This document shows, piece by piece, positions 16,327 to 42,797 of a stretch of DNA of 44,884 nt. The DNA is taken from assembly GCA_902541315.1 (NCBI GenBank), contig CACBQF010000007.1, forward strand, positions 1-44,884, read 5' to 3'. This DNA comes from an uncultured Pelagibacteraceae bacterium (GTDB lineage Bacteria > Pseudomonadota > Alphaproteobacteria > Pelagibacterales > Pelagibacteraceae). The translations under genes were made by a program, and so were the position numbers. A model generated the notes under the pieces. It made no database searches and was not told the DNA's origin. It saw nothing but the letters and a program-made list of their open reading frames with translations. The stretch's first letter is position 1. Every line of letters starts with the position of its first letter.

Positions 16327-16334
16327 ATTCTTTT

Positions 16335-16355: not shown

Positions 16356-16364
16356 TGTTATAAG
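16356..16364 (+). promoter_or_regulatory. predicted extended -10 promoter of dapA, leaderless geometry
   Basis: TGT-TATAAG is an extended -10 element whose 3' end lies 5 bases before the dapA ATG at 16370. Transcription would start on or next to the A of the ATG. No good -35 and no Shine-Dalgarno sequence are seen. The same layout occurs before spoT and argC. Confidence 0.45.
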
Positions 16365-16369
16365 TACTT

Positions 16370-17251
16370 ATGTTTAAAGGTTCAAATGTTGCTTTAGTCA
16401 CCCCATTTAAAAATAATCAACTTGATGAAGAAAATTACATCAAGTTAATACATTTTCACATCAAAAATGGTACAAATGGTCTAGTACCTGCTGGCACAAC
16501 AGGAGAGTCTCCAACTTTAAGTCACGACGAGCATCAAAAAGTAATTGAACTATGCGTAAAAGAAAGTAGCGGTAAAATACCAGTTATTGCAGGAACTGGA
16601 TCAAATTCCACAGAAGAAGCAATTTCTCTTACAAAACATGCTGAAAAAATAGGGGCAAACGGAGCTCTTATTGTTACTCCATATTATAACAAACCAACAC
16701 AAGAAGGTTTGTATCAACACTACAAGGCTATAAATGATAAATGTGGGATACCAATCCTGATTTATAATATTCCAGGAAGATCTGTAATTGATATGTCTGT
16801 AGACACGATGGCAAGATTATTTGAATTAAAAAATATTGTTGGTGTAAAGGACGCTACGGGAGATTTAAATCGAGTAAATCAAACATTAGAGAAAATGGGA
16901 AAAGAATTTATTCAACTAACTGGGAATGATGATAATGCGATGGAATTTAATAAAAGGGGAGGTGTTGGGGCTATAAGCGTTACAGCTAATATAGCACCTA
17001 AATTATGTTCTCAATTTCAAGAAAGTTCTTTAAAGAATGATAATAAATCAATTCAAGAAACTGTAAAATTGGATAAAATTTTGCAGCCTTTGCATAATGT
17101 AATGTTTGTTGAGAGTAATCCGAGCCCAGTTAAATATGCAGCAAAACTTTTAAATCTTTGTACTGATGATGTTAGACTTCCACTGGTTAAAGTTACAGAA
17201 AAAACAAAAGATATTGTAGAAAAAGCACTTCGGTTATCTAAATTGATTTAA
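16370..17251 (+). CDS. dapA: 4-hydroxy-tetrahydrodipicolinate synthase
   Basis: Condenses pyruvate with aspartate semialdehyde, the first committed step to diaminopimelate and lysine. Class I aldolase TIM barrel of normal length (293). The pyruvate-binding GTTGESPTL loop, the [14 protein letters not shown] segment, YNIPGRS and the Schiff-base Lys160 in GVKDATGDL are all present. Its stop overlaps the smpB start by one base, giving the dapA-smpB pair common in alphaproteobacteria. The ATG is the first codon after a -10 box, see the promoter at 16356. Confidence 0.97.
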
Positions 17252-17721
17252 TGATAAAAAAAACCAATCAAGGTTTAAAAATAATCTGTTTAAATAGAAA
17301 AGCAAGTTTTAATTTTTTTTTTGAAAGTCTCTTGGAGGCTGGAATTGTTTTAAAAGGTTCGGAGATCAAATCTTTAAGGCAAGGTAAAGTTAGTATTGCA
17401 GACTCCTATGCTGTTGAAAAAAATGGAGAAATGATTTTAATTAATTCTCATATAGCTTCTTACAAACAAGCAAGTTACATAAATCACAAACCACTAGATG
17501 AAAGGAAACTTTTACTGAATAAAAGAGAAATAAATAAACTTATAGGCAAGATACAAAGAGAGGGTTTCACAATAATTCCAACAAAAATGTATTTTAAGAA
17601 AGGTAAAGCCAAAATTGAGTTAGCAATTGCTAAAGGAAAAAAACAATTCGATAAGAGAGCTGCGATTAAAAGAAGAGATTGGAATCGCGACAAAGCAAGA
17701 TATGTCAGAAAAACAAGCTAA
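17251..17721 (+). CDS. smpB: tmRNA-binding protein SmpB
   Basis: Binds tmRNA and delivers it to stalled ribosomes for trans-translation. The OB-fold core has [32 protein letters not shown], and the basic C-terminal tail [20 protein letters not shown] is the part that enters the mRNA channel. At 156 residues it has normal length. It overlaps dapA by one base and folK by 20 bases. The tmRNA gene itself is not seen in this window. Confidence 0.97.
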
Positions 17722-18199
17722 AATTATTTATTTGAGCGTTGGTTCCAGTCTTGGTAACAGAAAAAAAAATATCGAAAAAACTAAATTCGAATTATACTCC
17801 AAAGGTATAAATATAATTAGATCCTCAAATTACTACGAAACTTTATCTTGGCCAAATCCAAAAAATCCAAAATTTTACAATATTATCTTAAAAGTTTCAT
17901 CAAATTTGAAAATATTAGAACTATTAAAAATTTGTAAACAGATAGAAACATCTTTAGGAAGAAAAAAGGCACCTAAAAACTCACCACGTATATGTGATAT
18001 TGATATTATTGACTATAATCAAAAAATTACTTCAAATGGCATAAATGTTCCTCATCCTAGAATGCACCTTAGAAACTTTGTATTAATACCATTATTTGAG
18101 ATAGAAAAAAATTGGAGATACCCTAATTCTAAACGATATATAAAAGATCTTATTTTTTCTTTATCCAATAGTGACATTAGATCTATTAAACTTGTCTAA
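17702..18199 (+). CDS. folK: 6-hydroxymethyl-dihydropterin pyrophosphokinase
   Basis: Transfers pyrophosphate from ATP to hydroxymethyl-dihydropterin in folate synthesis. Family signatures are [16 protein letters not shown] at the start, FYNIILKV, and the Mg/ATP motif [11 protein letters not shown] followed by [17 protein letters not shown] place the start at ATG 17702, giving 165 residues, because the family begins a few residues before YLSVGSSLG. The frame stays open further upstream inside smpB, but that part has no homology. The overlap with smpB is 20 bases. Confidence 0.93.
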
Positions 18200-18204
18200 A
18201 TTAA

Positions 18205-18213
18205 TGATATAAC
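18205..18213 (+). promoter_or_regulatory. predicted extended -10 promoter of spoT, leaderless geometry
   Basis: TGA-TATAAC lies in the 19-base gap between folK and spoT and ends 5 bases before the spoT ATG at 18219. The spacing is identical to the elements before dapA and argC. No clear -35 and no Shine-Dalgarno sequence are visible. Confidence 0.4.
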
Positions 18214-18218
18214 TAAGT

Positions 18219-19964
18219 ATGTTAAATTCTCAAGAACTTATAAATAAAGTCAAAAATTATAATAAATTTTTGAATCCTGAGAAACTAAATAAAGCTTACG
18301 ATTTTGCAGTTAAGGCGCACGAGAACCAAAAAAGAGCATCAGGAGATCCATATTCGGTTCATCCAATTGAAGTAGCAAATATTTTAACAGATTTAAAGTT
18401 AGACAGTGCAACAATAACAACTGGTTTATTACATGATACTATCGAGGATACATATGCAACCTATGAGACGATCAAAGGAGAATTTGGAATTGAAGTGGCT
18501 GATTTAGTTGATGGAGTAACAAAAATTTCTGTATTTGAAAATACCGCATCACCGAACTCAAAAGCGGAAAACTTTAGAAAGTTAATTTTAGCTACGTCAA
18601 AAGATATAAGAGTTTTATTAGTTAAAATTGCAGATCGGCTACATAATATGAGGACCATCAAAGCAATTAAAAAAAAAGATAAAAGACAAAGAATAGCTCA
18701 GGAAACAATGGAGATATATGCACCTCTGGCTGATAGAATGGGTATGCATAGAATTAGAGATGAATTAGAAGATTTATCTTTTGAAATTTTAAATAATGAT
18801 GCAAGGTCATTAATTCAAAAACGATTAGACGAAATAAAATTAGATAAAAAAGATATTTTTGAAACGTTATCAAATGAAATAAATACATTATTATCTCAGA
18901 ACAATATTCAGTTAAAAATTTTTGGTAGAGAAAAAACTCCTTTTTCAATTTGGAGAAAAGTTCAAAAGAAAAGAGTCTCATTAGAGCAAATTACAGATAT
19001 AATTGGATTTAGAATTATTTTAGATAATATAGATGATTGCTATAAAACTTTAGGGATAATTCATAAAGAATGGAATTGTATTCCAGGAAAATTCAAAGAT
19101 TATATATCATCACCGAAAATTAATGGATATAAGTCAATACACACTGCAGTAATTGGCTCCTATAAAAAACCAATAGAAATACAAATAAGAACTAAAAAGA
19201 TGCATGATTTTGCTGAGAGAGGAATAGCATCACACTGGCAATATAAATCTTCTGAAAAATTTAATTCTTTAACTTGGAAAGAGTATGATTGGTTAAAAGA
19301 TTTAGTCGAAATTATTGAAAAAAATGAAAATCCAGAACATTCCTACGAATATACTAAAATGCAAATGTTCCAAGAAAATGTATTTTGTTTTACGCCCAAA
19401 GGATCTGTAATTAAGTTGCCAAAAAACGCAACTCCAATTGATTTTGCATATGCAGTACACACAAAAATAGGTGATACGGCCGTTGGTTGTGAGATTAATG
19501 GCAACAAAGGAGAATTACAAAGTATTTTAAGAAACGGAGATACGATAAGAATCATAACATCAAAAAATAATTCTCCATCATTACATTGGATACCAATTAC
19601 TAAAACAGGTAAGGCTAGATCTGCTATTAGAAAGTATTGGCATGATAAAGGAGAAAAAAAACAGGAAAGAGTAAAAAAATATAATACAACTCTATGGATT
19701 TCTTTACCTGATAAACCAGGTCAATTAGGTAATGTAAGTTCACTTATAGGACAACATAAATTAAATATATCAAATCTCGAGATGGTTGGAAAAAACCCTA
19801 ATTATATTAATTTTAAGTTTCAACTTATAATAAGAGATCTTAAAAACTTTACTAATTTTATTGCAGAGCTTAAACAAAAGGGTATAAAATTTAAGATAAT
19901 CAGACACGAAGATAAAAGAAATGCTTTCACACAAAAAATCCTTAAATATTTTAAGAAAAACTGA
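18219..19964 (+). CDS. spoT: bifunctional (p)ppGpp synthetase/hydrolase, compact form
   Basis: Makes and breaks the stringent-response alarmone. The hydrolase HD domain (~20-170) keeps H48 and HDTIED at 72-77. The synthetase domain (~230-345) keeps the GREK segment at 236-239 (RxK type, as in bifunctional enzymes), GYKSIHT and the catalytic Glu320 in EIQIRT. A TGS domain spans ~387-448 and an ACT domain ~491-563. Only ~43 residues separate TGS and ACT, so most of the helical and zinc-finger/RIS region of ordinary Rel/SpoT (about 700 residues) is missing. The 3' end overlaps pyrE by 44 bases. rpoZ, often upstream in alphaproteobacteria, is absent here. Confidence 0.94.
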   Translation: MLNSQELINKVKNYNKFLNPEKLNKAYDFAVKAHENQKRASGDPYSVHPIEVANILTDLKLDSATITTGLLHDTIEDTYATYETIKGEFGIEVADLVDGVTKISVFENTASPNSKAENFRKLILATSKDIRVLLVKIADRLHNMRTIKAIKKKDKRQRIAQETMEIYAPLADRMGMHRIRDELEDLSFEILNNDARSLIQKRLDEIKLDKKDIFETLSNEINTLLSQNNIQLKIFGREKTPFSIWRKVQKKRVSLEQITDIIGFRIILDNIDDCYKTLGIIHKEWNCIPGKFKDYISSPKINGYKSIHTAVIGSYKKPIEIQIRTKKMHDFAERGIASHWQYKSSEKFNSLTWKEYDWLKDLVEIIEKNENPEHSYEYTKMQMFQENVFCFTPKGSVIKLPKNATPIDFAYAVHTKIGDTAVGCEINGNKGELQSILRNGDTIRIITSKNNSPSLHWIPITKTGKARSAIRKYWHDKGEKKQERVKKYNTTLWISLPDKPGQLGNVSSLIGQHKLNISNLEMVGKNPNYINFKFQLIIRDLKNFTNFIAELKQKGIKFKIIRHEDKRNAFTQKILKYFKKN

Positions 19965-20508
19965 TGCGCTTTTAGATGGACATTTTGTATTATCATCTGG
20001 TCTCCACTCTTCAAAATACATTCAATGTGCAAAACTTCTAAGTTATCCTTATTTAGCTGAAAAAATATGCAAATCTCTTGCCAATAAGATAAAAAAAAAT
20101 TTCAGTAAATTTGATCTTATTTTATCTCCAGCAATAGGAGGTATAGTAATTGGCTATGAAATAGGTAGAATTTTAAAAAAAGAAACTATTTTTTGTGAAA
20201 GAGTAAAGGGTAAATTCACACTTAGAAGAGGATTTAAGATAAGAAAAGGATCAAAGGTTTTAATAATTGAAGATGTTATTACTACAGGAAAGTCTAGTAT
20301 CGAATGTGTCAAATTAATAAAAAAAGCTAAAGCAAAATTTATAGGATTTGCTTCTATAATTGACAGGTCAAATAAAAAAAATCTCAAAATAAAAAGTAAA
20401 ATTATTTCTCAGCTAAAAATAGATGTGCCAGTTTTTAATAAAAAACAAATACCAAATAGTTTAAAACTTATTCCTATAACTACTCCAGGGAGTAGATTTA
20501 CAAAATGA
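19921..20508 (+). CDS. pyrE: orotate phosphoribosyltransferase
   Basis: Joins orotate to PRPP to form orotidine monophosphate in pyrimidine synthesis. The PRPP-binding motif VLIIEDVITTGKS and the segments GHFVLSSGLHSSKYIQCA and ILSPAIGGIVIGYEIGR identify it. At 195 residues it has usual length. The ATG at 19921 lies 44 bases inside the spoT end. The N terminus up to FVLSSGLHS matches the family, so this long overlap appears real. Confidence 0.95.
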   Translation: MLSHKKSLNILRKTDALLDGHFVLSSGLHSSKYIQCAKLLSYPYLAEKICKSLANKIKKNFSKFDLILSPAIGGIVIGYEIGRILKKETIFCERVKGKFTLRRGFKIRKGSKVLIIEDVITTGKSSIECVKLIKKAKAKFIGFASIIDRSNKKNLKIKSKIISQLKIDVPVFNKKQIPNSLKLIPITTPGSRFTK

Positions 20509-21221
20509 AACGTTTAGGGGTAAATATTGATCATGTAGCAACTTTAAGAAATGCTAGAGGTGAAAATCATCCAGATCCAGTTTACGCTGCTAAATTTGTT
20601 AAAAAAGTTGGAGCAGATTCAATTACAATTCACTTAAGAGAAGATAGAAGACATATTAATGATGCTGATGCTAAAAGAATATGTTCTATAAAAGGGTTAC
20701 TAGTAAATTTAGAAATTTCAACAAATTCAAATATTGTCAAAAACGCAATTAAAATAAAACCTAGTTTTGTTTGTATTGTGCCCGAAAAAAGAAAAGAAAT
20801 AACTACTGAAGGTGGTTTAAATTTAATAAAAAACAGGACCAAAATACAAGATATAATAAAAAAATTTAAAAGATTAAATATAAGAACAAGTCTTTTTGTT
20901 AATCCTTCTCTGAAAGATATTAGAATATCAAAAGCAATTAACGTTGATTGTATAGAAATTCATACAGGTAAATTATCCAATTTAGTTAAAACAGGAAAAA
21001 ATTTTCAAAAAGAATTAAAGAGAATCAAAGAATGTTCTTATCTTGCAAATGATTTGGGAATAGAAGTCCATGCAGGACATGGTCTTGACTATAAAACCAC
21101 AAAAATCCTAACTAGAATAAAAACGATTAAAGAGTTTAATATTGGACATTTCATAATAGGAGAGTCAGTTTTTTTGGGTTTAAACGATGTAGTTAAAAAA
21201 TTTAAGACTATAATTAAGTAA
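20505..21221 (+). CDS. pdxJ: pyridoxine 5'-phosphate synthase
   Basis: Last ring-closing step of the DXP-dependent vitamin B6 pathway, condensing 1-deoxyxylulose 5-phosphate with 3-amino-2-oxopropyl phosphate. TIM barrel of 238 residues with RLGVNIDHVATLRNARG at the N terminus, ITIHLREDRRHI, CIVPEKRKEITTEGG, and EVHAGHGLDY with the GHFIIGESVF ending. It overlaps the pyrE stop by 4 bases (ATGA). Confidence 0.97.
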   Translation: MKRLGVNIDHVATLRNARGENHPDPVYAAKFVKKVGADSITIHLREDRRHINDADAKRICSIKGLLVNLEISTNSNIVKNAIKIKPSFVCIVPEKRKEITTEGGLNLIKNRTKIQDIIKKFKRLNIRTSLFVNPSLKDIRISKAINVDCIEIHTGKLSNLVKTGKNFQKELKRIKECSYLANDLGIEVHAGHGLDYKTTKILTRIKTIKEFNIGHFIIGESVFLGLNDVVKKFKTIIK

Positions 21222-21222
21222 G

Positions 21223-21609
21223 ATGAAAATTTTAGGTGTAGGCGTAGATATAGTTAAAAACGATAGACTTAAAATTTTAACAGGTAAAAAAAATTTTATC
21301 TTTAGAACTTTTACCAAAAATGAAATAAACTTTTCTAAAAAAAAAAATACAAAAATATCTTTTTTTGCAAAAAGATTTGCAGCAAAAGAGTCTTTTTCTA
21401 AATCCTTAGGAACCGGTATTCGAGATAATCTTAATTTTAAAGACATTGAGATACTAAATGATAAATTAGGTAAACCTTATTTTCGAAAAACAAAAAAAAT
21501 TAACAATCTTATTTATAAAAAATTTAAAGTTAAAAAGTACAATTTGTATCTTTCAATTTCCGATGAAAAAGATTATTCAATAGCATTTACAATTATTCAA
21601 AAACAATAA
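21223..21609 (+). CDS. acpS: holo-[acyl-carrier-protein] synthase
   Basis: Transfers 4'-phosphopantetheine from CoA to acyl carrier protein. Key motifs are GVGVDIVKNDR (Mg-binding Asp) and FAAKESFSKSLGTGI (catalytic Glu), with LYLSISDEKDYSIAFTII at the end. At 128 residues it has normal size. One base separates it from pdxJ and its stop overlaps lepB by one base. Confidence 0.95.
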   Translation: MKILGVGVDIVKNDRLKILTGKKNFIFRTFTKNEINFSKKKNTKISFFAKRFAAKESFSKSLGTGIRDNLNFKDIEILNDKLGKPYFRKTKKINNLIYKKFKVKKYNLYLSISDEKDYSIAFTIIQKQ

Positions 21610-22343
21610 TGTTTAATAAAAATTTTTTGATTGAAAACGCTAAAACATTGGTCTACGCTCTTATAATAGCTGTTTTTATAAGGTCCATATTAATCCAACC
21701 ATTTTATATTCCATCTTCATCCATGGAACCCAATCTCTTAGTTGGAGATAGATTATTTGTTAGTAAATACTCTTATGGTTATAGTAAGCATTCATTTCCA
21801 TTCAGCCCATCTATCTTTAAAGGTAGAATTTTTTTTAATGAGCCCAAAAGAGGTGATGTAGTTGTTTTTAAAACTCCAGCAGATAACAGAACTGATTATA
21901 TAAAAAGATTAATTGGTCTTCCAGGAGATAAAATCCAATTTATAAATTCTGAATTATACATAAATAATAATGTAATTTTTAAAGATAAAATATCAATTAA
22001 TGATAAAATTTTTTGTGGAAATAAAAGAGTAGATGTTTTTTCTTTCAAAGAGAATTTGCCTAACAGTTTAAGTTATAAAACAGTTTATTTCAAAAACGGA
22101 TCGTTTCAAAATTCAGATATTTTTGTTGTACCCAAAGATAATTACTTTTTTTTAGGAGACAATAGAGACTGTTCCAAAGATAGCAGATATTTATCAAGCG
22201 TAGGTTATGTTCATAAAGATAATCTAGTAGGTAAGGCACAGTTTATTTTCTTTTCATCAGACAGATCTTTTGGAAGTATTTTTTATTTTTGGAAATGGAA
22301 TCAGTCTATTAGATTTGATAGATTTTTTAAAAAGATTAGATAA
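21609..22343 (+). CDS. lepB: signal peptidase I
   Basis: Membrane serine protease that removes Sec signal peptides. One N-terminal membrane segment (TLVYALIIAVFIRSILIQ) is followed by the catalytic Ser in IPSSSMEPNLLVGD. The catalytic Lys lies in NRTDYIKRLIGLPGD, and the box FFLGDNRDCSKDSR is complete. At 244 residues it has the alphaproteobacterial size. It sits in the usual acpS-lepB-rnc order with one-base overlaps on both sides. Confidence 0.96.
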   Translation: MFNKNFLIENAKTLVYALIIAVFIRSILIQPFYIPSSSMEPNLLVGDRLFVSKYSYGYSKHSFPFSPSIFKGRIFFNEPKRGDVVVFKTPADNRTDYIKRLIGLPGDKIQFINSELYINNNVIFKDKISINDKIFCGNKRVDVFSFKENLPNSLSYKTVYFKNGSFQNSDIFVVPKDNYFFLGDNRDCSKDSRYLSSVGYVHKDNLVGKAQFIFFSSDRSFGSIFYFWKWNQSIRFDRFFKKIR

Positions 22344-23005
22344 TGAAAATACTTTATAACAGCCTTGAAAAAAAATTAGGTATAGATTTTAAAGATAAGA
22401 ATCTTTTAGTAAAATCACTGACACATAAAAGTTTTGATAATCAGCATAACAATGAAAAAATTGAATTTTTAGGAGACAGAGTTTTGGGTTTGGTGATTGC
22501 TAAAAAACTTTTAGAAATTTATCCAAATGAGAAAGAGGGTGTGTTAGATAAAAAATTTGCATCACTTGTTAACAGAAGAACTTGTTTACAAATTGCGAAT
22601 GAAATTGAATTAGAAAAATATATATTAATTTTTAGACCCAGAAATAAAAAAACAATTATTGAAGATAAAGTTGTCGCTGATAGTTGTGAAGCTTTGATAG
22701 GTGCAATTTATTTAGATAGAGGTTTTACAGCCGTAGAGAAAACTATTCTTAATTTATGGAAAAAACATTTAGAAAGAAGTGTGATAACAGAAATCGACGC
22801 AAAAACTAAATTACAAGAATTGTCTTTGAAAAAATTTAAAAAATTGCCAATTTATAGGTTAATATCTAATACAGGTCCTAGACACAAACCTTTATTTAAA
22901 GTTGGAGTAAAATTATTTAATACAAAACTATTTATATCTGAAGGTAGATCAAAAAAAGACGCTGAACAAAATGCAGCAATACTTTGTTTAAAGAATATTA
23001 TTTAA
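22343..23005 (+). CDS. rnc: ribonuclease III
   Basis: Endonuclease for double-stranded RNA, used in rRNA and mRNA processing. The catalytic signature NEKIEFLGDRVLGLVIA is near residue 37, with the second acidic site VVADSCEALIGAIYLD. A C-terminal double-stranded RNA-binding domain begins at DAKTKLQELSLKKF (~residue 153). At 220 residues it has normal length. The next gene is recO; the era GTPase gene usually found here is missing. Confidence 0.96.
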   Translation: MKILYNSLEKKLGIDFKDKNLLVKSLTHKSFDNQHNNEKIEFLGDRVLGLVIAKKLLEIYPNEKEGVLDKKFASLVNRRTCLQIANEIELEKYILIFRPRNKKTIIEDKVVADSCEALIGAIYLDRGFTAVEKTILNLWKKHLERSVITEIDAKTKLQELSLKKFKKLPIYRLISNTGPRHKPLFKVGVKLFNTKLFISEGRSKKDAEQNAAILCLKNII

Positions 23006-23007
23006 TT

Positions 23008-24678: not shown

Positions 24679-24685
24679 ACTTTAA

Positions 24686-24691
24686 ATTATA
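24686..24691 (-). promoter_or_regulatory. predicted -10 box of hemB, leaderless geometry
   Basis: A perfect TATAAT on the minus strand with 7 bases between it and the hemB ATG at 24678. It lies in an alternating TA run, which raises the chance of a coincidental match. No good -35 at 17 bases and no Shine-Dalgarno sequence are seen. Confidence 0.35.
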
Positions 24692-24770
24692 TATATATTG
24701 TGCGACAAATGTTATATACAAATATATCTTAAAAGAGATAATAAACAATATCAGGAGACAATTAGCTACA

Positions 24771-25361
24771 ATGAATTTAAATTTTAATGACTTTCAAAAG
24801 CAAGATTTGAAGTTTGACATTAAAAAACTCAAAGAGGCCTACAAACAAGTATTATCAATAAAAGGTTTTACAGGTGTTACTGGAGTATCAAATTTTGGAG
24901 CGATTTCATTAACTCAAATTCCAGGAGATCCAGACTCTATAAAGGGTAACAAGGCTAGAGGTGTGTTTTGGACAAAACCAGACTCTAGTGGAAAGGAAGT
25001 CAGAAGAGATGAAATGATAAATGAAGATGCTTATTCAGAATTTATAAATGATTATAAAAATACTTATTTTAAAGAAGTCTTTGATGTTCTTTCATCTAAA
25101 TATAAGTTAGGAAGAGTAAGAGTTTTATTAAAAGAACCAAGATCAACATTAAGTTGGCATAGAGATCCAGAACCAAGACTGCATATTCCAATTATAACAA
25201 ATCCAGGATCGATAATGGTTATAGATAATGTTGCAAAACATATGCCAGCCGATGGCTCTGTTTGGATAACTAATAACACGAAGTATCATAACGCCTTTAA
25301 CGGTGGAGAAGAAGACAGGGTCCATTTAGTTGCTTGCGTATTAGATTACAAATTTAATTAA
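24771..25361 (+). CDS. aspartyl/asparaginyl beta-hydroxylase-like Fe(II)/2-oxoglutarate oxygenase
   Basis: Probable double-stranded beta-helix oxygenase of 196 residues. The likely iron ligands are H130 and D132 in the SWHRDPEP segment and H173 in KYHNAFNGGEEDR, with R183 as a candidate 2-oxoglutarate anchor (DRVHLVACVLDYKF). RLHIPIITNPGSIMVID between them fits the AspH-like family. The substrate is unknown; a free amino acid, a peptide or a protein side chain are all possible. The start has a strong AGGAG at 24753-24757, with a long 13-base spacing. It faces away from hemB and is followed at once by rpiB. Confidence 0.7.
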   Translation: MNLNFNDFQKQDLKFDIKKLKEAYKQVLSIKGFTGVTGVSNFGAISLTQIPGDPDSIKGNKARGVFWTKPDSSGKEVRRDEMINEDAYSEFINDYKNTYFKEVFDVLSSKYKLGRVRVLLKEPRSTLSWHRDPEPRLHIPIITNPGSIMVIDNVAKHMPADGSVWITNNTKYHNAFNGGEEDRVHLVACVLDYKFN

Positions 25362-25362
25362 A

Positions 25363-25788: not shown

Positions 25789-25794
25789 ATTATT

Positions 25795-27108
25795 ATGTCA
25801 AGTGAAACTAAATATATAAACTCAGATTATAAAGATTTTTTTGAAAAAAGTTTATCTCAATCTGACCCAGATTTGTTCAAAGCCATTAATGATGAATTAG
25901 TTAGACAACAAAATCATATAGAACTTATTGCTTCTGAGAATATCGTTTCTCAAGCAGTGCTTGATGCACAAGGTTCAGTGCTAACAAACAAATATGCTGA
26001 AGGGTACCCAGGTAAAAGATATTACAACGGATGTGAACATGTAGACGTAGCTGAGAAATTAGCTTTAGAAAGAATTAAAAAACTTTTTAATTGCAAGTAT
26101 GCAAATGTACAACCACATTCTGGCGCCCAAGCAAATGGAGCGGTATTTTTAGCTCTTCTTAAACCTAACGATACATTTATGGGTATGAGCTTAAATTCTG
26201 GAGGTCATATTACTCATGGATTAAAAATTTCAATGTCTGGAAAGTGGTTTAATGCTATTAGTTATGATGTAGATAAAAAAACAGAGCTAATAGATTATGA
26301 GAATGTAGAGAGATTAGCCTTAGAACATAAACCTAAATTAATTATTGCTGGAGGAAGCGCATACTCTCGAGTAATTGATTTTAAAAGATTTCGTGAAATA
26401 GCAGATAAGGTCGGAGCATATTTGATGGTTGACATGGCTCATTTTTCTGGTCTTGTTGCAGGTAAGGGTTATCCAAACCCATGTGATTATGCACATGTTG
26501 TTACTTCAACTACACACAAAGTTTTTAGAAGTGCAAGAGGTGGTATAATTTTATCAAATGATCTTGATTTAGGAAAAAAGTTTGATACGGCAGTTTTTCC
26601 GGGATACCAAGGTGGACCATTAATGCACATAATTGCAGCAAAGGCTGCAGGCTTTTTCGAAGCACTAAAACCAGAATTTCAAGTTTATATAAAAAATGTT
26701 TTAGCTAATGCTAAAATGTTAGCCGAAACTTTGAAAAATAATGGATTTAAAATTTACTCTGGTGGCACAGATACCCATTTGATGTTAGTTGATCTTAGAC
26801 CATTCAATGTGAAGGGAAACGTTGCCTCTGAAAGTCTCTGTAGAGCAAACATAACTTGTAATAAAAATGGAATTCCATTTGATACTGAAAAACCAATGAT
26901 CACATCTGGCATTAGGCTTGGTTCTCAAGCGGCAACAACAAGAGGATTTGGTTTAAAAGAATTTGAAAAAGTTGGTAATTTAATAACTAAAGTAATAGAA
27001 GGTTTATCAAAAAACCCTGAGGATAATAGTAAAATTGAGGAAGAAGTTAGAAACGAAGTTATAGACTTATGTTCTCATTTCCCAATTTACAAAAATCTCA
27101 ATAGATGA
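25795..27108 (+). CDS. glyA: serine hydroxymethyltransferase
   Basis: PLP enzyme converting serine plus THF to glycine plus methylene-THF. It connects with the sarcosine oxidase products made from the sox operon. Key motifs are [52 protein letters not shown] and the PLP lysine K242 in [13 protein letters not shown]. That last motif differs from the usual THKT(L)xGPRGG. At 437 residues it is slightly long. A TATAGA ends 5 bases before the ATG but overlaps the rpiB stop, so it is only a weak promoter candidate. Confidence 0.97.
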
Positions 27109-28647: not shown

Positions 28648-28648
28648 C

Positions 28649-32120: not shown

Positions 32121-32126
32121 TATAAT
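32121..32126 (+). promoter_or_regulatory. predicted -10 box of hppA
   Basis: A perfect TATAAT in the 80-base gap before hppA. Transcription would begin near 32133, giving a leader of about 22 bases. No convincing -35 lies at 17 bases and there is no Shine-Dalgarno sequence before the ATG at 32155. Confidence 0.35.
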
Positions 32127-32154
32127 TAACATTAAAAACTTAATTTAGATTTAA

Positions 32155-35198: not shown

Positions 35199-35200
35199 TT

Positions 35201-35383
35201 ATGGCTGTACCAAAGAGAAAACAAACACCATCTAGAACTGGTATGAGAAGATCTCAGAATATGAAATTTTCATCAAAAAACGTTATTGAAGATAAGAAAA
35301 CTGGTGAGTACAGATTATCACATCATTTAGATTTAAAAACAGGTATGTATAAGGGAAGACAAGTTTTAGACCCTAAAGAATAA
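35201..35383 (+). CDS. rpmF: ribosomal protein bL32
   Basis: Large-subunit ribosomal protein of 60 residues. The N terminus [20 protein letters not shown] is characteristic. It has no cysteines, so it is the zinc-free form usual in alphaproteobacteria. It sits in the conserved rpmF-plsX order, with 17 bases before plsX. Confidence 0.96.
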
Positions 35384-35400
35384 TTTTTTAAGATTTTAAG

Positions 35401-36405: not shown

Positions 36406-36702
36406 ATGAGAACAAACTTAACTAAAAAAGATTTAGTTAATATTATTTACATGCAAGTAGGTTTTTCTAAACAAATATCTGAGCATCTAATAGATGAGTT
36501 TTTCACTCTAATAACACTAAATCTGAAGAAAGAAAAAAAATTAAAATTAACAAAATTTGGTACATTTTTTATTAAATTAAAGAAATCAAGAATTGGAAGA
36601 AATCCTAAAACAAAGGAAGACAAGATCATTTCTGAGAGAAATGTAGTTTTATTTAAACCTTCTAAAGAATTTAAAGAATTTATAAATTCAAAAAATGAGT
36701 AA
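36406..36702 (+). CDS. ihfA: integration host factor alpha-type DNA-binding protein
   Basis: HU/IHF-family DNA-bending protein of 98 residues. The fold is clear: TKKDLVNIIYMQVGFSK helices, then KLKLTKFGTFFIKLKKSRIGRNPKTKE, whose GRNPKT arm inserts into the DNA minor groove. Its place after plsX and before a MerR gene is that of ihfA in alphaproteobacteria. Overlaps the next gene by 8 bases. Confidence 0.9.
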   Translation: MRTNLTKKDLVNIIYMQVGFSKQISEHLIDEFFTLITLNLKKEKKLKLTKFGTFFIKLKKSRIGRNPKTKEDKIISERNVVLFKPSKEFKEFINSKNE

Positions 36703-37066
36703 ACTTGAGAGTGCTTATAAAACAATAGGTGAAGTAGTCAAAATTATTGGCTTAAAATCTAAAAGAGGTGATGCCTCACCAACACATACAATAAGATATT
36801 GGGAAAAAGAATTTAAACAAATTAAACCCAAAATTTTAAACGGCAATAGACGGTATTACGATAAAAAAAATATAGATTTAATCAGAAAAGTTCATTTTCT
36901 TTTAAAAGACCAAGGAATGACAATAAAAGGTGTAAAAAAAATTTTGAATAATCTAGATACTTTAAAACTTGACGAAAATTTAAATGAATCTATAAAAGCT
37001 TACGATATCAGAAATAAATTAATTAAGATTTCTAATATTATTAAAAATATTAAAAATAATAAATAA
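36695..37066 (+). CDS. MerR-family transcriptional regulator
   Basis: Small DNA-binding regulator of 123 residues. The N-terminal winged helix has YKTIGEVVKIIGL, THTIRYWEKEF, RRYYDKKNIDLIRKVHFLL and GMTIKGVKKILNN, which is the standard MerR layout. The short tail after ~residue 85 has no cysteines, so a metal sensor is unlikely. It is the uncharacterised MerR that follows ihfA in many alphaproteobacteria; target genes are unknown. Confidence 0.88.
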   Translation: MSKLESAYKTIGEVVKIIGLKSKRGDASPTHTIRYWEKEFKQIKPKILNGNRRYYDKKNIDLIRKVHFLLKDQGMTIKGVKKILNNLDTLKLDENLNESIKAYDIRNKLIKISNIIKNIKNNK

Positions 37067-37067
37067 T

Positions 37068-37259
37068 ATGGCTAAAAAAACTCATGTTAAAGTAAGACTA
37101 GTTCCTGAATCTAAACCAGATAGTTCTTTTTTTTATTATGTTAAAAAACCCGCAGGTGGAGAGAAAGCTAAAGTAAAACTTAAAGCAAAAAAATACAACC
37201 CTGTTACTAGAAAACATGAAATTTTTGTGGAAAAAAAACTTCCACCACACAGTAAATAA
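37068..37259 (+). CDS. rpmG: ribosomal protein bL33
   Basis: Large-subunit ribosomal protein of 63 residues. MAKKTHVKVRLV, FFYYVKKPAGG and KKYNPVTRKHEIFVEKKLPPHSK align with bL33. No cysteines, so this is the zinc-free form. It starts one base after the MerR gene and its stop abuts the stop of the convergent chorismate mutase gene, together forming TAATTA. Confidence 0.93.
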   Translation: MAKKTHVKVRLVPESKPDSSFFYYVKKPAGGEKAKVKLKAKKYNPVTRKHEIFVEKKLPPHSK

Positions 37260-37550
37260 TTATTTTTTTTTGAAGTTTCTCTTTTCGTAATCGATATATG
37301 CATAAATCATATTCTTCCAAATCTTATTTGTAATTTTTGGATCAATATTATTTTTCTGAGATTTTTTCTTTATATTTGATAAAATTTCTTTAATTCTTTT
37401 TTTATCAACTATTTGACTTTTTTTTTCTTTAAGTAAAAGTACCTTTTTGACTAAAAATGTTCTTTTCTTGACCAGCTTTATCAGTAAATTGTCAAGTTTG
37501 TCTAATTCAGATCTAATTTTAGTTAGTTTTTTTTTTTTTAAAGGCGACAT
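37260..37550 (-). CDS. chorismate mutase (AroQ type, free-standing)
   Basis: Rearranges chorismate to prephenate for phenylalanine and tyrosine. The 96-residue all-helical AroQ fold is seen: TKIRSELDKLDNLLIKLVKKRTFLVKKV (first helix with its conserved Arg and Lys), then KKRIKEILSNIKKKSQ and KITNKIWKNMIYAYIDYEKR. It is not fused to prephenate dehydratase or dehydrogenase. It is a one-gene unit between convergent rpmG and divergent ctaA. Confidence 0.82.
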   Translation of the reverse strand: MSPLKKKKLTKIRSELDKLDNLLIKLVKKRTFLVKKVLLLKEKKSQIVDKKRIKEILSNIKKKSQKNNIDPKITNKIWKNMIYAYIDYEKRNFKKK

Positions 37551-37558
37551 TTATTAAA

Positions 37559-37586
37559 TTGGATTAGTTAATAATTATTATATTTA
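37559..37586 (+). promoter_or_regulatory. predicted ctaA promoter, leaderless geometry
   Basis: TTGGAT (37559-37564), a 16-base spacer and TATTTA (37581-37586), with 7 bases before the ctaA ATG at 37594. Transcription would start at or just before the ATG. TATATT at 37579-37584 overlaps and is an alternative -10. No Shine-Dalgarno sequence is seen. Confidence 0.35.
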
Positions 37587-37593
37587 TCATTAT

Positions 37594-38619
37594 ATGTATA
37601 TAGAGAATAATTTACTGAGAAAACATATATCATTGTGGCTAATGTTCATGTTTTTTTTGATAGCTTTTATGATTGTTGTTGGTGGTCTAACAAGACTAAC
37701 CGATTCTGGTCTCTCAATAACAAAGTGGGAATTATTTTCTGGAACATTACCTCCTTTAAGTGATGCCAATTGGTTAGATTATTTTGAGGAGTATAAAAAG
37801 ATACCAGAATATAAAATGCAAAATTATTCTATGACTATGAGTGAATTTAAAGTTATTTTTTGGTGGGAGTGGGCACATCGTTTTTTAGGAAGACTAATTG
37901 GTTTAGGATTTTTAATTCCTCTAATATATTTTTCTTTTAAGATTAAGCTAACAAAATTAATAAATCTTTATTCAATTTTTTTACTTATATGTTTTCAAGG
38001 TTTTATAGGCTGGTATATGGTTTCAAGTGGGTTAATTGATAGATTAGATGTAAGTCATTTTCGACTATCAATTCATTTATTAATAGCATTTTTGATTTTG
38101 TCTTTAATTTTATGGAATTACCTTAAATTAAATTTTGATATAAAAGAACAATCGCAATTGAATATTTTTTTTCCTATAGCTTTTTTATTTTTAGTTTTTT
38201 TGCAAATAATTATTGGTGCTTTTGTTTCAGGGATGGATGCTGGTTTAATATATAATTCATGGCCCATGATGGGCAATACTTACTTTCCGGATGATAATAA
38301 ATTGGAAAATCTATTTAATTTAGCTGCATTTAGTGATGCATCACTAGTTCAATTTCTTCATAGAAATTTAGCTTATGTAATACTTTTTTATTATTTTTGG
38401 ATTTTATTTAAAATATATAAATATCGAATAAAAAATTGTTTTTTTGCAATTAATCTAGTTGGTTTTTTCTTACTTACTCAAGTCATTCTTGGAATATTCA
38501 CTTTAATAAATGGAGCTCAAATAATTTTAGCATCAATGCATCAATTGAGTTCAATTTTTCTTGTTAGTGCATCAGTATATTTTTTATATCTTAATAAAAG
38601 AATTAATTCTTTTTTATAG
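37594..38619 (+). CDS. ctaA: haem A synthase (COX15/CtaA)
   Basis: Inner-membrane enzyme that oxidises the C8 methyl of haem O to give haem A for cytochrome c oxidase. Eight membrane segments in 341 residues. The haem-ligand histidines are in the expected places: EWAHRFLGR, DVSHFRLSIHL, VQFLHRNLAYV and ASMHQLSSIF. The N-terminal VVGGLTRLTDSGLSITKWE and the central GAFVSGMDAGLIYNSWPMM loop are diagnostic. Its 3' end overlaps the convergent hydrolase gene by 17 bases. Confidence 0.96.
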   Translation: MYIENNLLRKHISLWLMFMFFLIAFMIVVGGLTRLTDSGLSITKWELFSGTLPPLSDANWLDYFEEYKKIPEYKMQNYSMTMSEFKVIFWWEWAHRFLGRLIGLGFLIPLIYFSFKIKLTKLINLYSIFLLICFQGFIGWYMVSSGLIDRLDVSHFRLSIHLLIAFLILSLILWNYLKLNFDIKEQSQLNIFFPIAFLFLVFLQIIIGAFVSGMDAGLIYNSWPMMGNTYFPDDNKLENLFNLAAFSDASLVQFLHRNLAYVILFYYFWILFKIYKYRIKNCFFAINLVGFFLLTQVILGIFTLINGAQIILASMHQLSSIFLVSASVYFLYLNKRINSFL

Positions 38620-39421
38620 GAAAATAAGTAAGAATAAATTTTTTCAGTACGTTTAAGACTTTATCAGCTTCTTCTAAGAGCATCATATGCCCACAATTGT
38701 CAATTATTTCAATTTTACTTCCATCTATTAAATTTGCTAATTTTTTTCCTTCCTTTACAGGACACATCTTATCTCCATTTGCTAAAATAGATAAAGTAGG
38801 GATCTTGATTTCTTTGGCAGCCTTAAAACCATTCTTATAATTATCACAAGCTCTAAAATCTATTCCTAATGTATTTTTGATTGTTCTGGACTTAGCAAGC
38901 ATTCCACCTGTATTAATGTGATATAAACCTGGAACTGGATGTCCACCAAAGTGTCCAGCTGGACCATGTGCCCAGTCCATCATTAAATCAACGGCTTTCG
39001 GATCATCGTTTTCTGCTAAAGACAATAATTCTGGATTCATAGGAATGGCTCCAGCTCCACCCATTAAACTTAGTGTTTTTATCTTTTTTGGAAACCTAAA
39101 TGCACATTCTAAAATAACTAAACATCCTTGGGAATGACCAACTAGAGAAGCCTCTTTGTAACCTACTGCATCTATAACATCACTAATCCAATCAGCCATG
39201 TCTTCGATTGTTTTCAAACTTTCACCTCCTGAAAGACCATGTCCAGGCATATCTAAAGCTAAAACACTATAACCATGAAAAGCAAAATACCTAGTTTGGA
39301 GTACCCAAGTCATATGTGTTAATCCACTACCATGAACAAAAATTATTAGTGGTTTTTTTTTGTCGAAAGGTCGTCCACCTGTAGAAGCAAAAACTTCTAC
39401 ACCATTAACTTGAAACTTCAT
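38603..39421 (-). CDS. alpha/beta hydrolase
   Basis: Alpha/beta-hydrolase of 272 residues. The oxyanion motif is FVHGSGLTHMTW. The nucleophile Ser lies in VGHSQGCLV, the acid Asp in ILANGDKMCPV, and the His in IDNCGHMMLLEEADK. No signal peptide, so cytosolic. It overlaps the metY stop by 4 bases and is surely in the same transcript. Function is not known. The fold is that of esterases and thioesterases, and also of homoserine acetyltransferases, but it is shorter than MetX and lacks its typical motifs. Confidence 0.85.
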   Translation of the reverse strand: MKFQVNGVEVFASTGGRPFDKKKPLIIFVHGSGLTHMTWVLQTRYFAFHGYSVLALDMPGHGLSGGESLKTIEDMADWISDVIDAVGYKEASLVGHSQGCLVILECAFRFPKKIKTLSLMGGAGAIPMNPELLSLAENDDPKAVDLMMDWAHGPAGHFGGHPVPGLYHINTGGMLAKSRTIKNTLGIDFRACDNYKNGFKAAKEIKIPTLSILANGDKMCPVKEGKKLANLIDGSKIEIIDNCGHMMLLEEADKVLNVLKKFILTYFPIKKN

Positions 39422-40752
39422 TGATTAGAAACAAGTCTAGGTCGCCTTGCAGCTCTAAAACCTGTTTCAAAGTCATTCCTAATATCATCAAAATCTTCTA
39501 TACCCACAGACAATCTAATCATATCTTGAGATAATCCAGCAAATTTTAATGTAGCCTCATCCATTTGAGAGTGCGTAGACGATGCTGGATGAATTACTAA
39601 GGTTCTAGTATCACCAACATTTGCAAGATGTGAAGCAAGTTTAACGTTATTTATAAATGCTTCACCTGCTTCTTTACCACCTTTAATACCAAAAGCTATC
39701 ATAGAACCCTTACCATTTGGTAAAAGTTTTTTTGCTAAATTGTGGTCAGGGTGGTCAGGAACACTTGGATGAGAAACCCAAGCAACACTCTCATGACTTA
39801 ATAAATATTCAACCATTTTTTCTGCGTTAGAACAATGCTTTTGCATTCTAACAGATAAAGTTTCAATACCTTGCAAAACATTCCAGGCATTCTGCGGACT
39901 TAAACATGGTCCAAAATCTCTCATACCTTCAGCTCTTGCTTTCATAGTAAAAGCAGTAGGCCCAAACTCTTCAGCAAACGAAAGTCCATGGTAACCCTCA
40001 TAAGGTTTAGTCATGGTTGGAAACTTTTCATTTTGCATCCAATCAAATTTTCCACCCTCTACTAAAATACCTGCCATTGATGAACCATGACCTGCCATCC
40101 ATTTAGTAAGCGAATGAACCACAATATCAGCACCATGATCAATTGGTTTGCAAAGATATGGTGTTTGATAAGTTGCATCTATAATTAAAGGAACTCCGGC
40201 ATCATGAGCAATCTTCGCTATTTCAGGCATATTCATAATTTCGTTTCCAGGATTTCCAACAAGCTCACCAAAAATACCTTTAGTATTTTTTTGAATTGCT
40301 TTTTTAAAACCCTCAGTATCTCTTGGTTTTACAAATGTACATTTGATACCAAATTTTGGCAAAGTGAGCCTAAATAAATTTACAGTCCCACCATAAAGCT
40401 GAGACGAAACTACTAAATGATCTCCAGCTTCACATAGAGTCATTATCGTTAAAAAAATTGCACTCATTCCAGATGAGGTTGCTAGTGCTGCTGTGCCACC
40501 TTCTAGAGCCGCAACCCTCTCCTCCAAGACAGCGACTGTAGGATTAGAAATTCTGCTGTATATATGACCACCTCTTTCCAAATTAAAAAGTGCAGCAGCA
40601 TGATCAACATCATCAAATAAATATGATGTAGTTTGATAAATTGGGACTTGTCTCGAACCAGCATTTTTTTGAGGCTGATAGCCAGCATGAAGACTTAATG
40701 TATCAAATTTGTAAGTTTTAGGATCAGTGCTTTTCTTTTTCTTATCGGTCAT
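39418..40752 (-). CDS. metY: O-acetylhomoserine sulfhydrylase (MetY-type PLP enzyme)
   Basis: Cys/Met-metabolism PLP enzyme that adds sulfide (or methanethiol) to O-acetylhomoserine to form homocysteine (or methionine). The length of 444 and the N-terminal FDTLSLHAGYQP with VPIYQTTSYLFDD fit MetY rather than the shorter MetB/MetZ. The PLP lysine lies in VVHSLTKWMAGHGSSMAG; YSRISNPTVAVLEERVAALEGG and the ending LIRLSVGIEDFDDI are complete. AAGGA stands 6 bases before the ATG. SAR11 members are reported to depend on reduced sulfur, which makes a direct sulfhydrylation enzyme relevant. Confidence 0.93.
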   Translation of the reverse strand: MTDKKKKSTDPKTYKFDTLSLHAGYQPQKNAGSRQVPIYQTTSYLFDDVDHAAALFNLERGGHIYSRISNPTVAVLEERVAALEGGTAALATSSGMSAIFLTIMTLCEAGDHLVVSSQLYGGTVNLFRLTLPKFGIKCTFVKPRDTEGFKKAIQKNTKGIFGELVGNPGNEIMNMPEIAKIAHDAGVPLIIDATYQTPYLCKPIDHGADIVVHSLTKWMAGHGSSMAGILVEGGKFDWMQNEKFPTMTKPYEGYHGLSFAEEFGPTAFTMKARAEGMRDFGPCLSPQNAWNVLQGIETLSVRMQKHCSNAEKMVEYLLSHESVAWVSHPSVPDHPDHNLAKKLLPNGKGSMIAFGIKGGKEAGEAFINNVKLASHLANVGDTRTLVIHPASSTHSQMDEATLKFAGLSQDMIRLSVGIEDFDDIRNDFETGFRAARRPRLVSNQ

Positions 40753-40804
40753 AAATTTTCCTTGTTTTTAAATATTATTAACTAACTATCAATATTAATA
40801 TAAA

Positions 40805-40832
40805 TTGACAATATCACATTTATCAGTATTAA
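40805..40832 (+). promoter_or_regulatory. predicted promoter of rplM-rpsI
   Basis: A perfect TTGACA (40805-40810), a 16-base spacer and TATTAA (40827-40832). Transcription would begin about 40839, leaving roughly 5 bases before ATG 40844, and no Shine-Dalgarno sequence is present. This is the best -35 box in the window. The promoter shows that the open frame upstream of 40844 is not coding. Confidence 0.6.
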
Positions 40833-40843
40833 TCCGGCCATTC

Positions 40844-41302
40844 ATGACTAAATTTATCAAAAAAGAACAATTATCACCATCATGGTATGAAATTGATGCT
40901 ACTAATGCGGTTGTAGGAAGACTCGCTACAGTAATATCTAAGATAATTAGAGGTAAAAATAAAGCTACTTACACACCACATATGAATAGTGGTGACTTTG
41001 TTGTTGTTAAAAATATTGAACAAATAAAATTCACAGGAAAAAAGTTTCAAAATAAAAAATACTATAGACACACAGGTCATCCTGGTGGAATCAAAGAAAC
41101 TACCCCTGAAAAGTTAAAAGAAAAAAAACCAGGAGAGATTTTAAAACTAGCTGTAAAAAGAATGCTACCCACTGGAGTATTAGGTAGAGAACAGCTTTCC
41201 ATGTTAAAAATTTATAGTGGTGATAGTCATCCTCATACAGCTCAAAATCCTAAAGTAATAGAATTAAATAAACTGAATAATAAAAACATTGTAAGAAATT
41301 AG
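40844..41302 (+). CDS. rplM: ribosomal protein uL13
   Basis: Large-subunit ribosomal protein. Start set at ATG 40844, giving 152 residues. It opens MTKFIKKEQLSPSWYEIDA, followed by the conserved VVGRLATVISKIIRGKNKATYTPHMNSGDFVVV and KRMLPTGVLGREQLSMLKIY. An in-frame TTG at 40805 is the -35 box of the promoter, not a start. It is followed after one base by rpsI, the universal L13-S9 operon. Confidence 0.96.
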   Translation: MTKFIKKEQLSPSWYEIDATNAVVGRLATVISKIIRGKNKATYTPHMNSGDFVVVKNIEQIKFTGKKFQNKKYYRHTGHPGGIKETTPEKLKEKKPGEILKLAVKRMLPTGVLGREQLSMLKIYSGDSHPHTAQNPKVIELNKLNNKNIVRN

Positions 41303-41303
41303 T

Positions 41304-41741
41304 ATGGAAAGTGTTCAACAAAATCAAAAAAAAATAAAGATAAAATTAGATTTCAAAGATAGCAAATATGCCACTGGAAGAAGAAAAACTTCAATTGCAA
41401 AAGTTTGGCTTAAAAAAGGATCTGGTAAAATTTATGTTAATGGAAAACTTTACAGTGAATATTTTTCAAGTGATAATCACAAAATGCTAATAACAAAACC
41501 CTTTGAATTGATAAAACAACCCACTGATTTTGATGTTAGATGTAATGTAAAGGGTGGGGGACCAACAGGTCAAGCAGGAGCAATGGTTCATGGAATTTCC
41601 AAAGCCTTAGTTTTATTTGATGAAAATTTTAAAACATCTCTTAGAACTGAAAAATTAACCACTCGTGATTCTCGTGCTGTTGAAAGAAAAAAACCTGGAA
41701 GAAAAAAGGCTAGAAGAAGCTTCCAGTTTTCTAAAAGATAA
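41304..41741 (+). CDS. rpsI: ribosomal protein uS9
   Basis: Small-subunit ribosomal protein of 145 residues. The core starts at YATGRRKTSIAKVWLKKGSG, with VKGGGPTGQAGAMVHGISKAL and the basic C-terminal tail DSRAVERKKPGRKKARRSFQFSKR that reaches the P-site tRNA. The short N-terminal extension is usual in alphaproteobacteria. No terminator is seen after it; the 33-base gap holds the argC -10 box. Confidence 0.96.
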   Translation: MESVQQNQKKIKIKLDFKDSKYATGRRKTSIAKVWLKKGSGKIYVNGKLYSEYFSSDNHKMLITKPFELIKQPTDFDVRCNVKGGGPTGQAGAMVHGISKALVLFDENFKTSLRTEKLTTRDSRAVERKKPGRKKARRSFQFSKR

Positions 41742-41760
41742 TTTTCTTTTAATAATTAAC

Positions 41761-41769
41761 TGCTATAAT
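41761..41769 (+). promoter_or_regulatory. predicted extended -10 promoter of argC, leaderless geometry
   Basis: TGC-TATAAT is a perfect extended -10 element, ending 5 bases before the argC ATG at 41775. Transcription would begin on the A of the ATG. The spacing equals that before dapA and spoT. No recognisable -35 and no Shine-Dalgarno sequence. Confidence 0.5.
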
Positions 41770-41774
41770 AAAAA

Positions 41775-42797
41775 ATGCCTAAGCTTAATGTATTAGTTTC
41801 TGGATCTACTGGATATATTGGTATCCAATTAGTAAAATTGTTAGTCAAACATAAATATGTAAAAATTAAATATCTTTGTGGAAATTCCTCTGTGGGAAAA
41901 AAGATTTCATATTTTGATAAATCTTTGACTAGTAAAAAATTACCAAAAATTGTGAAATTCAATAAAAGATATCTTAATGAAATTGACATAATTTTTACGG
42001 CTCTTCCTAATGGTGAAGCTCAAGAAATTTCAAATTATTTAAAAGATAATAATGTATTAATTGATCTAGCTGCCGATTTTAGACTAAAAAAAGCTTCTGA
42101 TTATTTTAAGTGGTATAAACAGAAACACAAATCAACTAAAAATATCAAAAAAAGTATTTATTCCTTACCAGAAATTTCTAAACAAGAGGTTAAGAAATTT
42201 AATATAATTGCTTGTCCTGGATGTTACCCAACCTCGATCCTATTACCTTTAATTCCATTGGTACAAAAAAAACTAATTAACCTAAAAAACATTATAATTG
42301 ACTCAAAATCAGGTTACTCGGGAGCAGGCAGAGGTGTTCACAAAAAATATAAATATCAAAATTTATACGAGTCAATCAGCGCTTATGGAGTAGGGTTCCA
42401 TAGACATAATTCAGAAATAGAGCAAACTTTAAAAGATTATTCAAAAAAAAAAATTGAATTTAATTTCACTCCACATCTAACACCAATGTTTAGAGGAATT
42501 TTAAGTACAATTTACATAGAGGTTAAAAAGAATGTTTCTCAAAACAAAATCAAAAAAGTTTTAACTGATTATTATAAAAACGATATTTTCATTAAAATTT
42601 TAAAAAATAACAGTTTTATAAGCACTAATGATGTAATTAACACAAACAGATGTCATATTTCAGTATGCAAGACGAAAATTAAAAATAAGTTTATCATTCT
42701 TTCCATTATTGACAATCTTATAAAAGGCGGATCCGGTCAAGGTGTACAAAATATGAATTTAAAATTTGGATTTCCTTTAACAACTGGACTTATATGA
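41775..42797 (+). CDS. argC: N-acetyl-gamma-glutamyl-phosphate reductase
   Basis: NADPH-dependent third step of arginine synthesis. The N-terminal nucleotide motif is VLVSGSTGYIGIQLVKLL. The catalytic Cys150 is in ACPGCYPTSILLPL, and SKSGYSGAGRG, HRHNSEIEQTL and TPHLTPMFRGILST follow in normal order, with NLIKGGSGQGVQNMN near the end. At 340 residues it is complete. It follows rpsI, a common alphaproteobacterial neighbour. Confidence 0.96.
   Translation: MPKLNVLVSGSTGYIGIQLVKLLVKHKYVKIKYLCGNSSVGKKISYFDKSLTSKKLPKIVKFNKRYLNEIDIIFTALPNGEAQEISNYLKDNNVLIDLAADFRLKKASDYFKWYKQKHKSTKNIKKSIYSLPEISKQEVKKFNIIACPGCYPTSILLPLIPLVQKKLINLKNIIIDSKSGYSGAGRGVHKKYKYQNLYESISAYGVGFHRHNSEIEQTLKDYSKKKIEFNFTPHLTPMFRGILSTIYIEVKKNVSQNKIKKVLTDYYKNDIFIKILKNNSFISTNDVINTNRCHISVCKTKIKNKFIILSIIDNLIKGGSGQGVQNMNLKFGFPLTTGLI

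Follow-up and report, generated by a model that had tools for sequence, protein, structure and literature searches.

Conserved TATA boxes set close to the start codons of dapA, spoT and argC suggest leaderless or nearly leaderless messages in SAR11 bacteria

Contig CACBQF010000007.1 of an uncultured Pelagibacteraceae bacterium (GenBank assembly GCA_902541315.1), analyzed here over a stretch of 44,884 nucleotides (the window), carries three genes, dapA, spoT/rsh and argC, whose start codons are preceded by one and the same arrangement, TGN-TATAAN-N5-ATG, in which a TATA hexamer with a TGN triplet in front of it is separated from the ATG by exactly five bases (Table 1). A preliminary description of the window had taken this layout for a promoter fused to the start codon of genes that lack a Shine-Dalgarno (SD) sequence. 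The layout was confirmed, as the coordinates match exactly and the gene names are upheld by NCBIfam models. The start codon is ATG at all three genes and also in 30, 30 and 26 same-genus orthologues of dapA, spoT and argC, respectively. The final T of the -10 hexamer is present, among the three sites of this genome, only at argC. The spoT start lies 20 bases after folK and the argC start 34 bases after rpsI, both on the same strand. The GC content is 28.7%. The lack of SD sequences was borne out as well, since the words GGAG, GAGG and AGGA were found 3–12 bases upstream of the start in 0/76 dapA, 0/81 spoT and 0/26 argC orthologues examined.

Table 1. Start sites, predicted promoter elements and associated genes.
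Feature	Position	Strand	Remarks
TGT-TATAAG, predicted extended -10 of dapA	16356..16364	+	followed by TACTT and the ATG at 16370; spacing 5
dapA	16370..17251	+	TIGR00674 above NCBIfam cut-off; orthologues align from residue 1
TGA-TATAAC, predicted extended -10 of spoT	18205..18213	+	followed by TAAGT and the ATG at 18219; spacing 5
spoT/rsh	18219..19964	+	TIGR00691 spoT_relA above NCBIfam cut-off
TGC-TATAAT, predicted extended -10 of argC	41761..41769	+	followed by AAAAA and the ATG at 41775; spacing 5
argC	41775..42797	+	TIGR01850 above NCBIfam cut-off
TATAGT, predicted -10 of the divergent gene of dapA	16335..16340	-	8 bases before the ATG of that gene; back to back with the dapA box
Divergent gene, C-terminal part lytic transglycosylase-like	14107..16326	-	best NCBIfam matches all below cut-off
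trxB/divergent ELM1-family gene interval	L148:2785-2807 (G000 contig C2); L318-L347	divergent	21 bp, one TATATA

Orthologues of the three genes were taken from 60 relatives, at most 30 loci each, and from the 80 best among 232 named Pelagibacteraceae/Pelagibacterales loci; the named loci and the relatives overlap, and their counts were therefore not summed. At dapA, TGnTATAnn occurs at a spacing of 5 in 76/76 sequences including the window (81 were possible, and loci whose match missed the start were left out). The box stands 5 bases from the ATG in 89/89 loci, although the distance to the divergent gene ranges from 35 to 48 bp (21 of 110 loci were left out of this set). At spoT, 80 of the 81 sequences carry TGnTATAnn, with a spacing of 5 in 54, of 6 in 24 and of 7 in 2 of them, and the single exception has a shifted box. 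At argC the count is 22 of 26 same-genus orthologues (spacing 5 in 19, 6 in 3), four sister-family argC rows standing outside the 26. Across relatives TG and TATA are constant, while the third base of TGn is free to vary. The spacing, which the preliminary description had supposed to be fixed at 5, is thus invariant at dapA but extends over 5–7 bases at spoT and 5–6 at argC. With TGn directly before the hexamer and strongly conserved at all three genes, the boxes do resemble extended -10 elements, as had been proposed. At 18 of 19 other starts in the region TGnTATA was not seen at 5–8 bases, and at the remaining start it was seen in 3/71 sequences. A looser TATAAT (one mismatch) is found near some of the other starts, at a spacing of 11 in 42/64 sequences at 27105 and of 8 in 20/65 at 21223. 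The folK row of this survey is uninformative, since no start codon lies at the position assigned to folK.

The dapA start is conserved over about 17 bases up to the ATG, which is more than a -10 needs. An alternative register, TATGnT (TAnnnT), located 10 bases before the ATG, is likewise conserved, and it is possible that this register, if used as the -10, would yield a leader of about 4 bases. In the sister family, TGn-TAnnnT was read by eye at a spacing of 5–6 in 5 of 7 dapA loci, in the forms TGC-TATTGT-N5, TGA-TAAAAT-N5 or TGT-TAAAAT-N6. The gene divergent from dapA has TATAAT (at most one mismatch) at a spacing of 7 in 25/55 and of 8 in 19/55 sequences. Two TATA boxes thus stand back to back in the 43-bp interval between the two genes (16327-16369), one 5 and the other 8 bases from its ATG, and a GAATC between them is also conserved.

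The window belongs to genome G000 (1,032,735 bases, 83.8% complete). In the whole of it, the exact module TGNTATAAN-N5-ATG has 8 matches and the reversed pattern 1. Only the dapA, spoT and argC sites open a gene, the other five opening 1, 4, 5, 18 and 44 codons. Under a first-order Markov model of upstream DNA, 0.06 motifs are expected at 216 gene-group starts (445 kb of G000), compared to the 3 that were seen, all of them in the window. As the motif was chosen post hoc, conservation is ranked here as stronger evidence than this expectation, and the clustering of the three sites in one 45-kb contig, which is partly why they were noticed, was not used as evidence. TGN is not enriched before TATA boxes in general (10/228 near the start and 24/488 far from it). 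The idea of a genome-wide TGN-TATAAN module of spacing 5 was therefore abandoned.

The general rule is instead a TATA box 5–12 bases before the start codon, for which the fixed TGN-N5 module is too narrow. It was obtained with gene-group heads, defined as starts preceded by a gap of 15 bases or more (445 kb of G000 provided 216 of them, and 702 kb of the complete genome G012 provided 339), from genes called by an in-house script, the starts being checked against orthologues for 91 heads only. The pooled set comprises 739 heads from five same-genus genomes, among which orthologues recur. The three genes were removed from it by a filter that took out six heads (five of them, and one unrelated) and let one argC (G004) stay in. 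Among 256 tetramers, TATA is the most enriched at 5–12 bases, ahead of SD words, with 228 occurrences seen and 95 expected. Per position it amounts to 11.4 at 0–4 bases, 29.5 at 5–8, 27.5 at 9–12, 14.5 at 13–16 and 11.9 at 20–60; 25.2% of the heads have it at 5–12 bases, compared to 11.3% in windows of the same width further out. At the same place TTTT is halved (106 vs. 204), and AATT and TATT are flat. Compared with dinucleotide shuffles, TATA with 5–13 bases between hexamer and ATG is found 77 times in G000 (36.2 ± 6.5 in shuffles) and 105 times in G012 (54.5 ± 7.7); for starts inside gene groups the values are 28 vs. 18.5 ± 4.5 and 26 vs. 26.3 ± 5.1, respectively. The genome-wide peak at 5, whose absence had been named beforehand as a refutation, was thus found by half: the enrichment rises at 5 but continues as a plateau up to 12, with no spike at 5. 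Promoter and start codon may still be regarded as a single unit, provided that a range of spacings is allowed in place of a fixed 5.

The 91 heads whose ATG is common to G000 and G012 have TATA at 5–12 bases in both genomes in 23 cases, in one genome in 20 and in neither in 48. In nine upstream control windows of the same width, the both-genome counts for these heads were 4, 5, 4, 3, 0, 1, 1, 3 and 1. NCBIfam was run on 20 of the 23 two-genome heads, 2 of which gave no match, and Pfam on 1 more. Above the cut-off they include rpmE, accA, malate synthase G, rpmI, aceE, trxB, lgt, coxB, purD, typA, hisB, hemE and mnmG as well as members of a phytoene desaturase family and a HAD family; a GcrA-like protein stayed below it. 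TATAAT and TANNNT were also tried as descriptions of the general signal and were dropped, as the excess of either is weaker than that of TATA. Expectation-maximisation without a guiding motif turned up GC-containing motifs but no -10, and a first, cruder gene call with raw counts gave no clear peak. The signal emerged after the starts with a gap of at least 15 bases had been pooled, compared with shuffles and checked against orthologues. As a side observation, CTATA is over-represented at 5–13 bases before near-TATA heads of the five same-genus genomes (ACTATA 16 vs. 2.5, GCTATA 10 vs. 1.8).

Outside the genus, the sister-family genome G037 has TATA at 5–13 bases 45 times (29.2 ± 5.2 in shuffles). 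The respective values are 1 vs. 0.4 in G103 (GC 60%), 3 vs. 3.0 in E. coli and 13 vs. 8.9 ± 3.0, which is not significant, in G099 (GC 34.5%, SD at 31% of heads). A similar excess was noted in G085, an alphaproteobacterium outside the order (GC 33.1%; 22 vs. 10.8 ± 3.1), and from this genome it may be that the near-start TATA arrangement extends beyond SAR11.

SD words (GGAG, GAGG or AGGA at 3–12 bases) were found at 71 of 745 heads. A near TATA is rarer at SD-led starts (8/71) than at starts without SD (184/674; Fisher p 0.0025). No 16S 3' end was found in the fetched loci; a later pattern search of whole genomes gave a single match in G000 to GGATCACCTCCTT, the sequence with which 16S usually ends and which includes the anti-SD, and this match is the putative 16S end. 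The exact match is present in 9 of 31 genomes, the complete G012 not being among them, and the non-matching genomes likely have variants of the 16S end or masking.

One of the two-genome heads, trxB (TIGR01292 above cut-off), is divergent to a Mito_fiss_Elm1-family gene (PF06258), and exactly 21 bp lie between the two ATGs in 30/30 loci, where the interval occurs as 12 distinct 21-mers, each of the 30 loci having TATATA in the same position. The gap stays constant even though the proteins encoded by the neighbour are as little as 54% identical across these loci. The TATATA stands 8 bases from the trxB ATG and 7 from that of the neighbour. It is predicted to be a two-way promoter from which both transcripts would be leaderless or nearly so. 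Transcription starts on both ATGs would, by our own count, lie 22 apart. Divergent starts are close in these genomes in general, with a median distance of 83 bases in G000 and 82 in G012, compared to 233 in an E. coli sample called alike.

What was observed comprises the boxes and their conservation, the enrichment by position, whose near edge lies at 5, and the scarcity of SD words; from this we infer recognition by sigma-70, the place of transcription start and the mode of translation. The TGNTATA boxes of dapA, spoT and argC would be extended -10 elements set against the start codon, so that the mRNA would start on the ATG or within a base or two of it, giving a leaderless message. Instead of an SD site, the ribosome would bind the 5'-terminal AUG directly, as suggested by established work on leaderless mRNAs. 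The boxes are so placed that the first transcribed base would be expected on the ATG or beside it, which agrees with the preliminary description. A leaderless geometry would predict an edge at 5, because an mRNA started by a -10 at a shorter distance would scarcely include the complete AUG. We consider it quite probable that the boxes of the three genes are extended -10 elements giving leaderless or nearly leaderless mRNAs. These genes would then be the TG-extended, best-conserved cases of a broader SAR11 layout, with a TATA core 5–12 bases before the ATG of gapped genes and predicted leaders of about 0–6 bases. A larger proposal would give SAR11 a second genome-wide code for gene starts, with the position of the start codon dictated by the -10 box, roughly one in four gene-group heads leaderless or nearly so, and divergent pairs driven both ways by one box; we give it about even chances.

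Several findings weigh against this interpretation. Among the 26 same-genus argC orthologues, no box can be recognised at that of G012, and those of three others are altered or shifted; in the sister family, spoT and argC show no clear equivalent of the box. In the general signal, TATAAT with one mismatch has only a small excess (G000 76 vs. 65.2 ± 7.8; G012 130 vs. 98.5 ± 8.6), and the enriched core lacks the sixth T (T fraction 0.30 near the start, 0.42 far from it), which is one of the two best conserved bases in known promoters (PMC12825309, PMC10268837). It may be that the SAR11 -10 consensus differs from TATAAT. As the sigma-70 -10 of Sinorhizobium is described as poorly conserved, one might guess by analogy that the lost sixth T is a class-wide trait. 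The -35 signal is weak, TTGACA (at least 4 matches, spacers 15–18) accompanying 32.5% of the near boxes and 18–29% in other spacer windows. Finally, with a spacing of 5, counting from the box places the A of the ATG at position 6, whereas position 7 is optimal (PMC12825309, PMC10268837), so that transcripts might begin within the ATG or have mixed starts.

Among the other explanations, the most serious is that the boxes are real -10s but that spoT and argC are transcribed mostly by read-through from the genes before them, the leaderless start being minor or conditional. The short same-strand distances to folK and rpsI would suit such read-through, and in Zymomonas about half of the leaderless units also have an upstream leadered start (PMC7566282). 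A promoter without consequence would hardly be conserved so strictly, however, and read-through cannot serve dapA because its neighbour is divergent; overall we regard this as possible but rather unlikely. It is improbable that the element acts at the RNA level, where a longer leader would contain it as an AU-rich site for the ribosome or S1. Nakagawa et al. (2017) were indeed unable to separate Pribnow boxes from S1 sites in the AT-rich upstream bias, but the enrichment is specific to TATA among the AT tetramers, its edge at 5 fits promoter geometry, and the 21-bp interval at trxB leaves no room for a leader unless it begins within the gene next door.

If the box were not a core promoter but the operator of a regulator common to the three genes, as genes of amino acids or the stringent response, the roughly 17 conserved bases at dapA could be accounted for. 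This appears still less probable, as spoT and argC share only TGnTATA with dapA and not its flanks, and the sister family retains only TGn-TAnnnT. There remain chance matches, noticed post hoc, in AT-rich DNA, whose many TATAAT-like hits the preliminary description had already cautioned about. The low GC content, the five of eight genome-wide matches that are not gene starts and the first raw count would agree with them, but the boxes are kept in nearly all relatives examined and invariant where the flanks vary, and TATA exceeds both the dinucleotide shuffles and other AT tetramers. Chance thus does not explain the sites. It is the least credible of the explanations, and for dapA and spoT it is already refuted by the conservation seen in the aligned sequences.

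Leaderless genes whose -10 adjoins the start codon have been described before, also in alphaproteobacteria (PMC3160421, PMC12340547, PMC4117421, PMC3616915, PMC7566282). Zheng et al. (2011; PMC3160421) take a -10-like signal about 10–12 bases before a start codon without SD, with the core TANNNT, as the mark of leaderless genes, and report such TA-led genes in 2 of 117 alphaproteobacteria, Pelagibacter being unnamed in the main text. The SAR11 sites resemble them in the -10-like box near the start, the missing SD and the AUG start, but their core is TATA and lacks the final T, their spacing varies within a window, and some of them are TG-extended. In Deinococcus-Thermus, a -10 motif 6–7 bp before the open reading frame (ORF) replaces the ribosome-binding site in nearly a third of the D. 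radiodurans genes, which are assumed to be leaderless (Zhong et al., 2025; PMC12340547). A -10 adjoining the ORF in place of a ribosome-binding site is common to both systems, whereas that motif is TANNNT/TACACT, belongs to another phylum and has reporter and RNA-seq support, compared to the sequence evidence for SAR11. A two-way shared case like the 21-bp one of trxB was not seen in the outline and one Results section of that article. Measured 5' ends at the start codon are reported for 375 leaderless mRNAs in Caulobacter (PMC4117421), 171 in Sinorhizobium (PMC3616915) and 119 in Zymomonas (PMC7566282). These species have larger genomes and measured starts, unlike the streamlined, AT-rich SAR11 genomes. 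In Caulobacter, the first two mRNAs known to be leaderless included that of hemE, and the SAR11 hemE has a near TATA in both G000 and G012. Known bidirectional promoters use one near-symmetric -10 for both strands, with divergent starts 7–25 bp apart, mostly 18 (Warman et al., PMC12825309; PMC10268837). The trxB pair with its one symmetric box would fit this scheme, by its predicted starts, but stands apart in that the control region for two genes measures just 21 bp and both transcripts are predicted to be leaderless or nearly so; the dapA pair differs from a shared -10 in having two separate boxes. In the open-access literature, judged mostly by titles and abstract openings, no report of such starts was found for SAR11/Pelagibacter.

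If the interpretation is true, streamlining of the SAR11 genome extends as far as the start of the gene, where promoter and start codon would be one unit, leaders and most SD sites would be dispensed with and divergent genes could have one box in common. It would provide a simple rule for start-codon correction and promoter prediction in thousands of uncultured SAR11 genomes and identify the genes that leave no place for a riboswitch or for any other control through the leader. SAR11 are among the most abundant marine bacteria, and leaderless translation would become testable in a dominant free-living lineage, with dapA, spoT and argC, which stand for amino acid supply and the stringent response, as well-conserved test cases.

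A further divergent start region of the window belongs to hemB (minus strand; 24679-24770), where an AT-rich TATA-like box stands near the ATG and TATAAT with one mismatch is present at a spacing of 5 in 30/66 sequences. Its divergent neighbour at 24771 has AGGAG-like sites about 15–20 bases upstream in many relatives.

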